A stretch of DNA of 64,000 nt, from positions 558,001 through 622,000 of the forward strand of contig NZ_CP147920.1 of NCBI RefSeq assembly GCF_039645995.1. The letters run 5' to 3'. The notes below the pieces were generated by a model. It saw only the letters and a list, made by a program, of their open reading frames with translations, was not told where the DNA came from and ran no database searches. The stretch comes from Sulfurimonas sp. HSL3-1. Its GTDB lineage: Bacteria; Campylobacterota; Campylobacteria; Campylobacterales; Sulfurimonadaceae. How positions within the stretch are numbered: position 1 is the first letter of the stretch; each line of letters starts with the position of its first letter. The position numbers were made by a program, and so were the translations under genes. Below are positions 26,847 to 56,006 of the stretch, one piece after another.

Positions 26847-28176
26847 GATCAAGCACGCCTTCGAGCAGTTCCTGCTGGCCAAGACGGAACATCTTCCCCA
26901 TGCCAGCGAGATCGCTTACCTGCTTAAAAACGTTCACCAGGAGAACCCCGAGGATTTCCGGGGAATGCTTGGCCGGATCCCTCAGGATGTCCGGGGAGAG
27001 GTCCTGCTCGAACTGCCCGAAAAGCTCAAAGAGGAGGCGATCGAGTGTTACTCCAGCGAAGAGCTCGCTGAAGCAGTCGAGGGTCTGGATTCGGATGACG
27101 CCGCAGAGCTGATCGAGGATATCGTCGATTTCGACGAGGATAAGTCCGAGGCCGTTTACGAAAAGCTCGACGAGGAAGACCGCGAAGATATCGACAAGAT
27201 CCGCAGCTACGAAGATGACCAGGCCGGGGCATGGATGCAGACGGAGCTCTTCGAAGCGACCCTTGACGAGACGGTACGCGATGCGATCGCCCGGCTCAAA
27301 CGCCTGAAAGAAGAGGGCGAACTGGAGAACGTCCACCAGCTCTACATCGTCAATGACGAGCACCGTCTGGTTGCGACGCTTGCACTGGAAGATATGATCC
27401 TGATGGACTTCGAACAGACGTTCCGTGCGCAGATGGGACCCAAAGAGTTCCGGTCGGTCGAAGCGACCGATGACATCGACGAAGTAGCGACGATCTTCGA
27501 ACAGTACGACTTCGCCGTGCTGCCGGTCGTCGACCATGACAGCCGACTTGTCGGGCGGATCACTTCGGATGATATCTTCGACGTCATCGAAGAGCGCGCC
27601 ACCGAGCAGATCTATAACCTCGCCGGGGTCAACGACGAGGTCGAGCAGGAAGAGGATATTAAAGGGGTTTTCAAAAACCGCGCAAGCTGGCTATTTGTCA
27701 ACCTCCTGACGGCCATCCTCGCTTCGGTGGTCATCGGCCTCTTCGATGCGACGATCGCCGCCTATGTCCCGCTGGCGATTCTGATGCCCATTGTCGCGTC
27801 GATGGGGGGCAATGCGGGCACGCAGACCCTGACGGTTATGGTACGCCAGATGGCGCTGGGGGACATCGAGTTCGGCAATGCCAAATCGGCGCTCTACAAG
27901 GAGATTGCCGTTGCGCTGCTCAACGGGCTGCTCTTTGCCCTGATTATGGGGCTGATCGCCTGGGCCTGGTTCCAGCTGCCGCTGCTGGGGGTGGTCATCG
28001 GGATGGCGATGATCATCAACCTCTTTATTGCCGGCTTTTTTGGCGCGTCCATCCCCCTGCTGCTCAAGCGGCTCAACATCGACCCGGCGGTCGGCTCGAC
28101 CGTTTTGCTGACGACGGCGACGGACGTCTTCGGCTTCTTCAGCTTCCTCGGCCTCGCCAAGATTATCCTTCTTTGA
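26830..28176 (+). CDS. mgtE: Magnesium transporter MgtE
   Basis: MgtE is a homodimeric Mg2+ channel gated by cytosolic magnesium. The 448 residues comprise the helical N domain (about 1-125, rich in Glu/Asp), two CBS domains (about 130-255, with [19 protein letters not shown] and [22 protein letters not shown]) and five membrane helices. The selectivity-region motif [26 protein letters not shown] is near residue 318. The ATG lies inside the end of the csd3-like gene, with AAAGGGGGG just upstream acting as ribosome site. Confidence 0.95.
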
Positions 28177-28255
28177 TTTTTCATTGAAGGGTTTGGCTCC
28201 CTCGTAAACATTTCTATAAGATCATTGATATTTGACGGTGCGGAAGAGCGCCATA

Positions 28256-28373
28256 GATGCATGCCCCCGAGGTAGTACATTTATGGCATGAGTCCATTGC
28301 TAAAGCAGGCATAGCGTCAGCGAAGTAGCCGAGCTTTTCAAGTAAATATCGCGAGGCGAAGGGTCGCTTTTAC
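28256..28373 (+). repeat. Dispersed structured repeat, copy 1 (most diverged)
   Basis: It aligns with the next copy over about 118 bases: GAGTCCATTGC / AAGCAGGCATAGCGTCAGCG, then TTTTCAAG and ATATCGCGAGGCGAAGG. The short stem TCGC-GAG-GCGA is at 28349-28359. Another stem, TGCT...AGCA (28298-28307), replaces CCGCT...AGCGG of copy 2, so both arms changed together. Orientation is given relative to the other copies. Confidence 0.55.
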
Positions 28374-28392
28374 AGTTTGTAAAAATAAATGA

Positions 28393-28529
28393 AGTGCGGT
28401 TGACTGCACGCGCCCCGGAGGAAGTGCCCTTGGGGTATGAGCCCGCTGCTGAAGCGGACACAGCGTCAGCGTAGCCGGAGGGGCTTTCAAGGAAACATCG
28501 CGATGCGAACGGTACCCTTGTTTTGCTCC
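28393..28529 (+). repeat. Dispersed structured repeat, copy 2
   Basis: The element begins with a hairpin GTGC...GCAC (28394-28409), followed by CGCGCCCCGGAGGAAGTGC and the stem CCGCT-GCTGA-AGCGG (28443-28457). Then come CACAGCGTCAGCGTAG and GGGCTTTCAAGGAAACA. The stem TCGC-GAT-GCGA (28498-28508) is enclosed by CAAGG and CCTTG, and the copy ends TTGTTTTGCTC. The same boxes occur in the copy at 54931-55100. Confidence 0.7.
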
Positions 28530-28536
28530 TGCGGCG

Positions 28537-30558
28537 TTAGAATTTATATGAAACGTTGGCGTAGAAGTAGCGGCCCGGTTCGTTCAGCAGCATGACATCC
28601 CCGGCGGGATCGAGGCTAAGCAGTGTCAGGTCTTTGTAGGTGTTCGAAACGGCGTAAGTAGCGTTGAACACGTTGTCGATACCGGCGATCAGACTGAAGT
28701 TGCGGTTGATGCGGTGATCGATCTTGAGGTTCATGACCGCCCAGGCGCCGATGGCCTGTTCACCGTTCTGTGCGTCGTACCGGTCCCACTGGTGCGCGGC
28801 GACACCTTCGATGGTCGCCAGGCTGTCATCATGATAGTTCCAGTTGAGCGCCAGGTGGCCTTTGAGCGGCGGGATGTCGGCGAGGTTAGTACCGTTCTGG
28901 TCTCTGAGCGCACTGTCCTTTTTGCCGTACTGGTATGCCGCACCGAAGTCGAGGTAGAGGGTATCGCTGGCAAACCATGTCCCGGCGATTTCGGCACCCC
29001 AGATCGTGGCATCGATGTTCTCGAACTTGTTCTGCGTGATCGTCGGCGTGGCGTTGTAGTAGATGTAGTTTTTCAGGCGGCTGTAAAAGAGACGCGTCTT
29101 CAGGTTGAAATTGCTGTAGGTGTTTGTCATCCCCAGGTCGGCTTCGTAGTTCGTCGTCTGATCAAGATCGGGTGTACCGACGATACTGCCACTTTTTTGG
29201 AAATAGAGCTCGCGGGCGTCCGGGACGCGGGAGGCCATACCGATCCCGCCGAAGAGGCCGAGGCTCTCCGTCAGGGAGTAGTCGGCAAAGAGGTTGAGGC
29301 CGACGGAGGTGTAGTCGTTGTCCTGCAGGGCGGGATTCCCCGAGGTGATGGCCGTGTCGTCGTAACGCAGTCCCAGCTTGTAGGCAGCATCGGTATAGCG
29401 TTTTTCCAGTTCGGCGAAGAACGCGACGTTGCGGGTGTCGGCATCGTTGATGCTTGGGCCCATATAGGTGCCGTTCATGTCATAAGCACCGTCCCAGTTG
29501 CGCAGGCTGCCGTCGAGGCCGAGGGTCAGGTCCAATGTGTCTGAAAGGGCCGTGGTGTTTTTGAGCGTCGCCCCCTGGATCGTGGAAGTGAGGTGGTTGG
29601 TCATCGTTCCCATCATCATGGAGGATTTGCGCCATTCGGTCCACATCGGGTGGTCGACGTAGGAGTAGTAGTAGGTGGCGCGGATCTCTTTAGACCAGCT
29701 TGTCAGATCCGTGGCCACGTACTGGACGTTGTAGAGGTCCGAATTGTCGTAGCGGGCGTCCATCCCGGAGTTGGGGTAGAGGACGCCGTCGCTGCGGTTG
29801 CCGGTATAGCCGAAGCGGAGCTCCTGGTTCTCGGCCAGGTTGACAAAGAGCTTTGCCATCACGGAGCGTTTCGCATAGGCGCTGCGGTCGCGTTCGGAGG
29901 GCAGGTAGGCATTCGAGGCTTTGGCGGTGCCCGCGGCGACGGCATTGTCGATCTGGTCGGCGAAGGTATTGCCGCTGCCGTCCTCGTACTGGCCGCTCCA
30001 TTCGCCCGAGACGCCGATCAGCGCGCGGACCGTATCGTTCCCGCCTGTGAGGGTGCCGGCGACTTTCGAATAGCCGAAGCTGCCGATCCCGGCGTTGAAG
30101 TTGCCGTGCACCCCTTTGTCCGGTTGGACGGTATCGACGGTCACGAGGCCGCTGAGCGTGCCGGCGTGTTCGACGTCATAGGGCCCTTCGATGATGCTGA
30201 TCGAGGAGATGTTGTTCGTGATGACATGAGAGGTCGGCGGGTCCATACGGTTGGGGCAGGCGCCGTAGATCTTGCCGCCGTCGACGATGACGTTGATATT
30301 GTCGCGCTTCTGCCCGCGCAGGATGATATCGTTGGCGATACCGCTGCGGCGTACCAGGGTGATGCTCGGCACCTGTTTGGCCAGCGCTTCCGCAGTGTCG
30401 GCGGATTTGATCTCTTCGGTGTTGACATCGCTGAGCGATGAGCTTTCGACGACGATGCTGCCGAGTGTCGCGACGTCACCGTCCGTGGCGTTGTTCTCTG
30501 CCGCGTCATTGGCCAGCAGTGCGGCCGCGGCCAGCGAAACCAATACTGTTTTCTTCAT
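28537..30558 (-). CDS. TonB-dependent receptor, OprC/NosA copper type
   Basis: The 673-residue precursor has a signal peptide, a plug domain and a 22-strand-type barrel ending in VSYKF. In the plug, KIYGACPNRMDPPTSHV (residues 97-112) matches the signature of the OprC/NosA copper receptors, including the Cys and Met that bind copper there. A Met/His-rich stretch KSSMMMGTMTNHL near residue 310 could give further ligands. A receptor of this kind would import copper across the outer membrane, for instance for nitrous-oxide reductase or cytochrome oxidases. The ATG is preceded by AAGGAC. No copper enzyme gene lies beside it. Confidence 0.85.
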   Translation of the reverse strand: MKKTVLVSLAAAALLANDAAENNATDGDVATLGSIVVESSSLSDVNTEEIKSADTAEALAKQVPSITLVRRSGIANDIILRGQKRDNINVIVDGGKIYGACPNRMDPPTSHVITNNISSISIIEGPYDVEHAGTLSGLVTVDTVQPDKGVHGNFNAGIGSFGYSKVAGTLTGGNDTVRALIGVSGEWSGQYEDGSGNTFADQIDNAVAAGTAKASNAYLPSERDRSAYAKRSVMAKLFVNLAENQELRFGYTGNRSDGVLYPNSGMDARYDNSDLYNVQYVATDLTSWSKEIRATYYYSYVDHPMWTEWRKSSMMMGTMTNHLTSTIQGATLKNTTALSDTLDLTLGLDGSLRNWDGAYDMNGTYMGPSINDADTRNVAFFAELEKRYTDAAYKLGLRYDDTAITSGNPALQDNDYTSVGLNLFADYSLTESLGLFGGIGMASRVPDARELYFQKSGSIVGTPDLDQTTNYEADLGMTNTYSNFNLKTRLFYSRLKNYIYYNATPTITQNKFENIDATIWGAEIAGTWFASDTLYLDFGAAYQYGKKDSALRDQNGTNLADIPPLKGHLALNWNYHDDSLATIEGVAAHQWDRYDAQNGEQAIGAWAVMNLKIDHRINRNFSLIAGIDNVFNATYAVSNTYKDLTLLSLDPAGDVMLLNEPGRYFYANVSYKF

Positions 30559-45013: not shown

Positions 45014-46165
45014 ATGGATACAACAGTATTACTGATCAGCGACACGGTCTACGACGCCAACGGGGTGTCGCGTTTCATCCAGGATATGGCCGCACAGTCC
45101 CGTCAGAGGGACGGCCGTTTCTCGGTATTGAGCGCTTCGCCGCTTGGCGGGGAGGAGGTTGAGAGCAACATCGTCAACCTTCGGCCCTTCTGGTATGTCC
45201 GAATGCCCTTTTACCGGGAGCAGTTCCTCACCATCGTCCCGCCGTGGATGCAGATGTACCGCTACGTCAAGGCGGCTTCGCCGGATGTCATTCACATCTC
45301 AACGCCGGGACCGCTGGGAATCTGTGCGATGCTGATTGCCAAACGGTGCGGCATCCCCGTGGCAGGGACCTATCATACGGATTTTCCCTCCTACATCCGT
45401 AAGCAGATCAAGCTGGAGATGGCCGAAGCGGTGACGCGGCGCTTCATGCGCTTCTTCTTTCAGCGGATGCAGCGGGTGTTCTCCCGTTCGCAGCACTATA
45501 TGGAGGTACTGGAGCGGGAGCTGAAAATGGAAGAGCGGAAACTGCGCTTCCTGCCGCCGGGGAGCAATACGGAACGCTTCTCCCCCCGTCACCGGGACCC
45601 GGCGGTCTGGCCCCGTTTCGACATTCCCGTCGACACGCTGAAGATCCTCTACGTCGGCAGGCTCAGCGTCGAGAAGAACTTCCTATTTGTCGTCGACCTC
45701 TTCGAGACGCTGCAGCACACCTGCGACGTGCCGCTCTCCCTGATCGTCGTCGGCGAGGGGAGCCTGGCCGAGAGCGTGAGCCGGCGGCGCAACAGCCACA
45801 TCCACTTGCTGGGTCTTCAGGGCGGTTCGGACCTCTCAGCCCTCTATGCTTCCTCGGACCTGATGCTGTTCGCCTCCGTCACCGAAACGCTGGGGCAGGT
45901 CGTGATGGAGGCGCAGGCCTCCGGGCTGCCTTGCATTGTCAGCGACCAGGGCGGCGTCACCGACACCGTGGCACACGGCAAAACGGGCTACTGCCTCAGT
46001 GTCGAAGAGGACGACGAGTGGCAAAGCAAAGCTAAAACGATGATTGAGAACAGTGTGTTGCGTCAACAGATGGGTATGGCCGGCTGGCAGCGGATGCAGG
46101 AGCGCTCCATTGCGCAGACCTATGAGCGTTTTATGCAGGCGCATGATGAAATTGTCAAGAGTTAA
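45014..46165 (+). CDS. Glycosyltransferase family 4 protein
   Basis: The 383 residues form a GT-B fold. The acceptor-side domain has DTVYDANGVSRFIQDM and THIS-type GTYHTDFPSYI. The donor domain has ILYVGRLSVEKNF near residue 212, and the E-x7-E motif region is in FASVTETLGQVVMEAQASGLPCIVSDQGG. It resembles alpha-mannosyl/glucosyl transferases that build glycolipids. CATAAT (45002-45007) ends 6 nt before the ATG with no Shine-Dalgarno, so it may be leaderless. The stop codon TAA is formed inside the first unit of a heptamer repeat. Confidence 0.88.
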   Translation: MDTTVLLISDTVYDANGVSRFIQDMAAQSRQRDGRFSVLSASPLGGEEVESNIVNLRPFWYVRMPFYREQFLTIVPPWMQMYRYVKAASPDVIHISTPGPLGICAMLIAKRCGIPVAGTYHTDFPSYIRKQIKLEMAEAVTRRFMRFFFQRMQRVFSRSQHYMEVLERELKMEERKLRFLPPGSNTERFSPRHRDPAVWPRFDIPVDTLKILYVGRLSVEKNFLFVVDLFETLQHTCDVPLSLIVVGEGSLAESVSRRRNSHIHLLGLQGGSDLSALYASSDLMLFASVTETLGQVVMEAQASGLPCIVSDQGGVTDTVAHGKTGYCLSVEEDDEWQSKAKTMIENSVLRQQMGMAGWQRMQERSIAQTYERFMQAHDEIVKS

Positions 46166-46222
46166 GCGTTAAGAGTTAAGAGTTAAGAGTTAAGAGTTAA
46201 GAGTTAAGAGTTAAGAGTTAAG
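46161..46222 (+). repeat. Heptamer tandem repeat GTTAAGA, nine units
   Basis: Units begin at 46161, 46168, 46175 and so on every seven bases to 46217. The first ends in C and the last is GTTAAGG; the seven between are identical. The first unit contains the stop codon of the glycosyltransferase gene (AGT TAA). Since seven is not a multiple of three, the array places TAA in all three frames. Changes in unit number would leave the protein unchanged. Confidence 0.95.
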
Positions 46223-46307
46223 GCGCGCAGCGCTGAGAGCGCAAGGCGCGAGAGCTTTCCGCTGAGGAGGAAAACTCGATATGTGCGCCCTGAGCGAAGC
46301 GAAGAAG

Positions 46308-46354
46308 TCCCCTTCGGGGGATTAGCGCAGTCGAAGGGGCTTTTGCTCCTTCGA
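46308..46354. other. Tandem hairpins between convergent genes
   Basis: CCCC-TTC-GGGG (46309-46319) is a short hairpin. TCGAAGGGG (46331-46339) pairs with CTCCTTCGA (46346-46354) over nine bases with a six-base loop CTTTTG. They lie between the heptamer array and the end of the peroxiredoxin gene, which is read toward them. They could end peroxiredoxin transcription, although no long T-run follows on either strand. Confidence 0.45.
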
Positions 46355-46369
46355 CGTACTGTTGGTATA

Positions 46370-54930: not shown

Positions 54931-55100
54931 GCACAGTTTTACTGTGCGCGCACCGGAGGAAGTGCTCTTGGAGTGTGGGCACTCCGCTGAGGATGAAGCT
55001 TGCGGAATTCCACAACGCAGTGAGGAGAAAGCACAGCGCTAGCGTAGGAATCCGGGCTTTCAGGAAACATCGCTTCGCGAGCAGTCCCCTTGTTTTGCTC
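54931..55100 (+). repeat. Dispersed structured repeat, copy 3
   Basis: It begins with a perfect hairpin GCACAGT-TTT-ACTGTGC (54931-54947), followed by GCGCACCGGAGGAAGTGC. An insertion of about 40 bases follows, then CACAGCGCTAGCGTAG, GGGCTTTCAGGAAACA, the stem TCGC-TTC-GCGA (55070-55080) and CCCCTTGTTTTGCTC. The boxes occur in the same order as at 28393-28529. The copy fills the space between the ends of ovoA and metF. Confidence 0.7.
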
Positions 55101-55109
55101 GGATTCCGT

Positions 55110-56006
55110 TTAAGCCAGTAGTTCCGCCGCGACGCTGAACTGGTTGGCCATCATCAGGTGCACTTTCGGGTGCAGGGCCATGATGTCGTCGAAGAGCTTT
55201 TTGCTCAGATCGAAGCCGATCTTGTAGGCATCGTCCGTCTCTTTGGCGCTGCCGAGGGCTTCGAGCCAGGAGGGCGGAACGTGAATGCCCGGAACGTGGG
55301 CATCGAGGAACTGGGCCGTGCGCAGTTTCGTAATGGGGAAGAGGCCGAGGATAAGCTGGGCGCTTGTGCCGTGCTTTGCATTGGCTTCGTCCATCAGCTC
55401 CAGCAGTACCTTGGCGTTGTCGAGGTCGAAGACCGGCTGGGTGATGATCCCCTGCGCGCCATGTTCGACTTTTTTGGCCATCTTCTTGTAGAGGCTTTTT
55501 GGATTGCGGGCAAAGGAGTTGACGACGGCAAAGGGGAGAATCGGCTGCGGTGCGACGGAGAAGGCTTTGCCCTCCAGGTCGGTGCCGGCGTTAAAGGCGG
55601 CGATGATGTCCAGCAGCAGGGTACTGTCGCTTTCAAAGACCCCCTTGGCGTCTTTCTGGTCGGAGTTTTTGGCCGGGTCGCCGGTCAGGGCCAGGATGGC
55701 ACGGACGCCGGCTTCATTGGCCCCGAGCAAGTCGCTTTGCAGGGCGATGCGATTGCGGTCGCGCATGCTCATGGTCGCCAGGACCGGTTTGCCGAAACGC
55801 TGTTGCATCGCCACGGCGGCGAAAAGGGCGTTGTATTTCAGCTTGGCAAGGGGGTTGTCGGTGGTACTGAACGCGTCGACGCGCTCATGCAGGCCGAGGG
55901 ATTCGATCGTGTCGATGACGGGGGCGAAGGAGGCGGAGTGTGACGGTGTTGTCTCGAGACTGACATAACGTCCGTTTTTTAGCTTTGCTTCCAGTGCGTC
56001 AAACAC
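55110..56006 (-). CDS. metF: Methylenetetrahydrofolate reductase
   Basis: The 298-residue TIM-barrel flavoprotein reduces 5,10-methylene- to 5-methyl-tetrahydrofolate for methionine synthesis. Visible features are the early Glu in YVSLETTPSHSASFAPV, ILALTGDPAKNS near residue 105, FAVVNSFARNPKSL and HGAQGIITQPVFDLDNAKVLL near 180, with LILGLFPITKLRTAQFL. The opening differs from E. coli MetF and matches the broader family, so a related pterin-dependent role is possible. It is divergent from serB across a palindromic promoter. Confidence 0.85.
   Translation of the reverse strand: MFDALEAKLKNGRYVSLETTPSHSASFAPVIDTIESLGLHERVDAFSTTDNPLAKLKYNALFAAVAMQQRFGKPVLATMSMRDRNRIALQSDLLGANEAGVRAILALTGDPAKNSDQKDAKGVFESDSTLLLDIIAAFNAGTDLEGKAFSVAPQPILPFAVVNSFARNPKSLYKKMAKKVEHGAQGIITQPVFDLDNAKVLLELMDEANAKHGTSAQLILGLFPITKLRTAQFLDAHVPGIHVPPSWLEALGSAKETDDAYKIGFDLSKKLFDDIMALHPKVHLMMANQFSVAAELLA

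Follow-up and report, generated by a model that had tools for sequence, protein, structure and literature searches.

Comparison of a dispersed repeat in the window (the whole 64,000-nt stretch of DNA analysed) with its copies in the same genome and in related genomes points to a family of mobile, non-autonomous DNA hairpins of very small size, and not to an RNA gene or terminator family. Judging from sequence, we place the probability of this reading at about 0.7. The repeats are dispersed, their stems covary, one strand is preferred for folding, and each module, as well as the whole element, is cleanly gained or lost between genomes; from these genomes we infer movement. The base would be a composite of three hairpins (P1-P3-P4, ~95 nt) with a REP-like GTAG at the foot of P4. 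Into this base the P2 unit would have inserted between P1 and P3, module D into the P3 loop and also into D itself, and module C into hairpin loops of three kinds (P4, another dispersed repeat, an unrelated host hairpin). The outcome would be a mosaic of nested hairpins whose composition varies between sister species.

Along the folding strand, from 5' to 3', the hairpins occur in a fixed order: P1, P2, P3, the GTAG-footed P4 and, within the P4 loop, module C. P1 has highly variable arms, and a stem of at least 5 bp precedes P3 in 29 of 33 other copies. P2 (27 nt) consists of the box GCGCCCCGGAGGAAGT and a hairpin, for example GTACCC-TT-GGGGTAC. It is followed by GGGC, by P3 with the loop GCYGA, and by the conserved linker ACACAGCGTYAGCGTAG that ends in GTAG, which is present at the foot of P4 in most of 76 distinct copies. 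P4 itself has variable arms around GGGC-TTT-GCTC, followed by CGTA. Module C (36 nt), with the sequence CAAGGAAACATCGCnnnGCGAGCGGTACCCTTGTTT, is located in the TTT loop of P4, and module D (33-36 nt), running from TGTAGCGTAGCGGAATTCCGC to GTGAGGAC, in the loop of P3. At four loci (L065, L066, L059 and L069) the P2 box is reversed next to P3, which indicates that modules can also flip. Another repeat, seen at several gene ends (L017, L018, L021), combines the P2 box with a longer conserved tract containing CCCGAAAGC..CTTTCGGG and CTTTCTTCTTTG.

The initial annotation had described three diverged copies with ordered boxes in the window. All three are where it placed them, and every stem that it named can be read directly in the sequence: the stem TCGC-NNN-GCGA with the loops GAG (28349-28359), GAT (28498-28508) and TTC (55070-55080), the second stem changed on both sides, the two opening hairpins, and the location of both sites in gaps between convergent genes (Table 1). 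Copies 1 and 2 share 73.5% identity over 102 nt (E 4e-12, BLAST in the set of fetched loci), and copy 3 was found in a genome BLAST with copy 2 as query, in two pieces (E 4e-9 and 2e-6). A P3-P4 model (R1), with no window copy in its training set, recognizes copy 2 (E 7.2e-10) and copy 3 (E 6.3e-6); when the C insert is allowed, the matches extend over 28439-28538 (E 4e-15) and 54977-55110 (E 8.5e-9). The module C model matches three times in the window, with E-values (5.2e-19, 8.9e-16 and 5.3e-5) that are not independent, since the window copies belong to its 24 training sequences. Two features had been overlooked: module D, which splits stem P3 of copy 3, and a fourth site, likewise in a convergent gap (R1 match 46252-46358). 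About eight tandem GAGTTAA heptamers (46164-46225) stand directly after a stop codon and just before this fourth element, and similar short tandem runs precede elements at L129, L130 and L227.

Table 1. Elements and modules of the repeat family in the window.
Feature	Position	Strand	Basis
Copy 1, decayed: P2-like box, P3 (TGCT/AGCA 28298-28307), module C (28339-28376)	28256-28380	+	Sequence, identity to copy 2, C model
Copy 2, hairpin P1 (GTGCGGTTGACTGCAC; GTGC..GCAC)	28394-28409	+	Direct reading
Copy 2, P2 box (GCGCCCCGGAGGAAGT and GTGCCC-TT-GGGGTAT hairpin)	28410-28438	+	27-nt module, gained/lost elsewhere (L055 vs L014; L009 vs L138)
Copy 2, hairpin P3 (CCGCT 28443-28447/AGCGG 28453-28457) and conserved linker ACACAGCGTCAGC	28439-28470	+	R1 match, covariation
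Copy 2, GTAG foot (28471-28474) and hairpin P4 (arms 28474-28484, 28525-28535)	28471-28535	+	Reading, R1, pair table
Copy 2, module C, 36-nt hairpin insert in the TTT loop of P4	28488-28523	+	C model; empty/filled sites at other loci
Fourth site: partial P1/P3, P2-like box, P4 (46330-46355) with empty TTTT loop	46222-46358	+	R1
Copy 3, hairpin P1 (GCACAGT/ACTGTGC)	54931-54947	+	Direct reading
Copy 3, P2 module; missing at G006 orthologous site	54948-54976	+	L009 vs L138
Copy 3, hairpin P3 and linker, split by module D	54977-55043	+	Orthologue comparison, R1 with insert
Copy 3, module D, 33-nt insert in P3; missing at G006 orthologous site	54994-55026	+	L009 vs L138
Copy 3, GTAG foot and hairpin P4 (arms 55047-55057, 55097-55107)	55044-55107	+	Reading, R1
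Copy 3, module C in P4 loop; missing at G006 orthologous site	55061-55096	+	Orthologue comparison, C model

Further copies are plentiful. The window's own genome (G000) gives 25 BLAST matches and 42 P3-P4 matches with R1 at E<=0.5, that is, ~40 copies, and its congeners carry 25-39 P3-P4 copies each, the exceptions being the draft genomes G003 (3) and G004 (11). Of the 18 genera that were sampled in the family, 17 contain the P3-P4 core. It also occurs in further families of the order, in one of which (f10) the matches listed include at least about 20 core copies per genome. Module C occurs in 63 of 151 family genomes and in 33 of 397 genomes of the class. A search for its exact pattern in 84,980 species returned only records titled Sulfuricurvum, Helicobacteraceae or Campylobacterales. 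The exact pattern had no match in viral contigs, and viral spread was dismissed as a candidate. No description of this repeat in Campylobacterales was found in the part of the literature that was searched. One genome (G035) has four P3-P4 copies of equal score, and the two examined (L242 and L243) are identical and lie ~10-20 nt upstream of a 23S rRNA gene. Element strand seems to depend on the half of the chromosome, with + prevailing in the first and - in the second, which might reflect the direction of replication.

The fold is kept while its sequence changes. Among 15 insert-free copies, 51 pair cells are altered on both sides, compared with 20.9 in shuffles; the share of paired cells is 91%, and 34-51% when the partners are slid. 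The 76 distinct copies contain 316 two-sided cells against 116 +/- 11 after shuffling, in an alignment that favours the model because it was fitted to it. The short stem in C covaries as well (CGC/GCG, CGGC/GCCG, CCC/GGG, CAC/GTG). When one conserved G.U pair and one marginal outer pair are left out, G.U pairs outnumber A.C pairs by 64 to 7, and the written strand is therefore the folding strand. The covariation that the initial annotation had suspected is strong, and the fold is indeed kept between copies, but among orthologues of one copy compensatory change is scarce. Of 25 changed pairs at such orthologues, two are two-sided and kept, ten are one-sided and kept, and 13 are gained or lost. 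Since compensatory changes among orthologues are so few, the covariation consists mostly of differences between copies. Stems that diversified while the fold was needed for spreading would be expected of such a repeat family. Between-copy covariation is no evidence of per-site selection for RNA, and the case carries a warning that covariation between dispersed copies need not imply a functional RNA.

Orthologous sites compared in G000 and three congeners (G006, G007 and G001) provide the evidence for mobility. Downstream of a gene that we take, from its sequence, to be radA, G006 has the hairpin AACGCCAACTGCTTGGCGTT, and G000 has the same hairpin with 36 extra nucleotides, module C, in its loop (L008 vs L139). 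As G005 and G002 also carry C at this site, G006 has probably lost it; an exact loss is as notable as an exact gain. The P4 loops of three loci are filled with C in G000 and empty in G006 (L005/L047, L009/L138, L020/L143), and some of the C differences in G006, at the L008, L020 and L002 loci, look more like loss than gain. Module D provides a case in the other direction: 36 nt in a P3 loop are found in G006 and are missing in G000, G007 and G001 (L144 vs L002 and L028), and presence in only one of the four species therefore indicates a gain. D is also present inside D (L053 in G001, filled; L135 in G021, empty). The 27-nt P2 is present in G006 and missing in G000 at one locus (L055 vs L014), and the reverse holds at that of copy 3 (L009 vs L138), where D is missing in G006 too. 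Module C forms tandem arrays of three units in G006 (L032) and four in G010 (L177), in which the copies join exactly at the T run. Gene conversion between copies is unlikely as the source of C gain and loss, because the P4 arms stay locus-specific and C is also found in unrelated hairpins.

Whole elements behave in the same way. An entire element lies between two overlapping co-directional genes in G000 (L003) and is missing in G006 and G007 (L141, L150); its ends show a 4-nt overlap, GTGA/ATGA. The second whole-element insertion relative to G006 has a TTTA repeat (L192 vs L214). Such 4-nt overlaps, as the target site duplications of MITEs might leave, are seen at these two whole-element insertions only, and inspection by eye of the clean insertion ends of L003 and L192 revealed no terminal inverted repeat, which in MITEs matches a transposase. 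These clean empty and filled sites in sister species support the small non-autonomous element that had been one of three interpretations offered at first.

Insertion targets of module C were judged by folding energies with genomic controls. When the flanks of 38 distinct C sites in the family are joined, the junction falls in the loop of a hairpin of <= -10 kcal/mol at 20 sites (53%), compared with 4.9% of control positions. The signal comes mostly from P4 hosts, the other host hairpins being individual examples, and the preference was not seen outside the family (0 of 13 sites in other families). In related genera, C occupies the loop of another hairpin that is dispersed as well, GGTGAGC-TTGTCGAACC; one genome (G053) has 34 empty copies of it. 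A dispersed hairpin GGTGAGC-NN-GTCGAACC, often with CCCTTCGACAGGCTCAGGGCGAACGG nearby, was noted in G053, G058 and G075, with dozens of copies in one related genome. We suggest that the elements move as folded single-stranded DNA and that a trans-acting enzyme may use hairpin loops as targets. Their persistence may be due chiefly to the low cost of insertion between genes.

The strong covariation between copies, the G.U bias, which also fits selection on RNA, and the copies just upstream of 23S rRNA genes in G035 would agree with site-by-site selection that maintains a structured RNA (a small RNA, a leader or a 3'UTR). We nevertheless regard this as improbable. Apart from the 23S rRNA that adjoins the element in L242 and L243, Rfam gave no match above the gathering threshold. 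Gene context, taken from codon-usage gene calls at 37 surveyed genome sites, shows random orientation to tandem transcription, as the element runs along the genes 11 times and opposite to them 12 times. Presence and modules differ between sister species, and there is little compensatory change within orthologues; the non-coding RNA family envisaged at the outset finds no support in these data. Bidirectional intrinsic terminators between convergent genes, suggested by the convergent gaps at all three window sites and by the GC-rich hairpins, can be given hardly any credence. No intrinsic terminator (a GC-rich hairpin followed by a T run) was matched in the region searched, 28100-28600, and L003 inserted between co-directional genes that overlap. 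The surveyed gaps (23 tandem, 9 convergent, 4 divergent and 1 unclassified, with 0 of 37 sites within a gene) are close to the window's own background of 41, 13 and 12. A preference for convergent gaps has no support beyond the window, and convergent placement is a property of the window's sample and no genome-wide preference.

If the repeats are mobile hairpins, the mover has to be considered. A GTAG-tagged REP/BIME family moved, now or until recently, by a RAYT (an HUH enzyme of the IS200/IS605 type), with the loop modules as REP variants, would account for P4 as a short hairpin whose foot reads GTAG in most copies and for the strand-specific folding. Y1 genes occur in many family genomes; G000 has a single intact RAYT-like Y1 transposase gene of 177 aa (L072 1255-1788; G000:C1:2318328-2318858, minus strand), and G006 has a broken Y1/RAYT fragment. 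Yet the inverted repeat that flanks the intact gene (GTTCCCACCGTCTCGGTGGGAATGC; GTTCCCACCGTCTCGGTGGGAATGCAT) is a different one, particular to that gene, and no Y1 transposase was found at E<=0.001 in five congeners (G001, G002, G005, G006 and G007) that carry 25-39 P3-P4 copies each. The two clean whole-element insertions also have 4-nt repeats, which no Y1 enzyme is known to produce. We consider this explanation unlikely and reject RAYT as a necessary mover for the genus; as a broken copy persists in G006, it may have acted earlier. For cyanobacterial SDRs, a copying route by way of RNA and reverse transcriptase has been proposed. Module C, which reads as a stem followed by UUUU and joins its tandem copies at the T run, would suit such a route; but no reverse transcriptase domain was found in seven of the eight genus genomes, including all four complete, single-contig ones (G000, G005, G006 and G007), which makes this route very improbable and led us to reject the enzyme as mover.

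For the mobile hairpins that we favour, a further proposal is tentative, possible rather than probable: module C and its kin may rank with the smallest known mobile DNA units, as hairpins of 27-36 nt that insert order-wide into the loops of hairpins by an undescribed trans-acting activity that is neither Y1 transposase nor reverse transcriptase. The way in which repeats only a few tens of nucleotides long spread through bacterial genomes has been debated for many years. The short units, the exact empty and filled sites, the recent differences between species and the absence of two usual suspects for the mover from several complete genomes make a defined system for an enzyme hunt.

The SDRs of Nostoc and relatives (attributed to Elhai et al. 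2008) are reportedly units of a few tens of nucleotides, with predicted hairpins that show compensatory changes, nested insertions and recent mobility. By these descriptions, the present family shares all of these features: C, D and P2 are mobile units of this size, nested to the point of D in D and of tandem C x3/x4. It differs, in a comparison by description, in its Campylobacterales hosts, its 27-36-nt units and complete host genomes without reverse transcriptase. SDRs are cited in PMC2884548 and PMC3116915. REP/BIME/REPIN sequences are GTAG-tagged palindromic repeats (PMC3733652, PMC3116915), and REPs within other palindromes have been reported for three species (PMC3733652). Like them, the present repeats are short intergenic hairpins in tens of copies with GTAG at one foot (here P4), mosaic combinations and strand-specific folding; unlike them, they have a core of three hairpins and several independent 27-36-nt modules nested in loops, most congeners lack a dedicated Y1/RAYT, and two clean insertions have 4-nt repeats. 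By its sequence P4, an extragenic multicopy GTAG palindrome, qualifies as a GTAG-REP, but it lacks the link to a RAYT gene, as the RAYT is not flanked by the same repeat. Frequent nesting of intergenic hairpins is also seen in the short palindromic repeats found in Volvox organelles (PMC2670323) and in hairpin elements of mitochondria (PMC2800124), whereas the repeats described here reside in bacterial chromosomes, have conserved module identities and show several clean empty sites when species are compared. Insertion at the symmetry axis of REPs is described for IS elements (PMC1525189), which likewise take the centre of a palindrome as target; the inserts described here, in contrast, are 27-36 nt long and noncoding.
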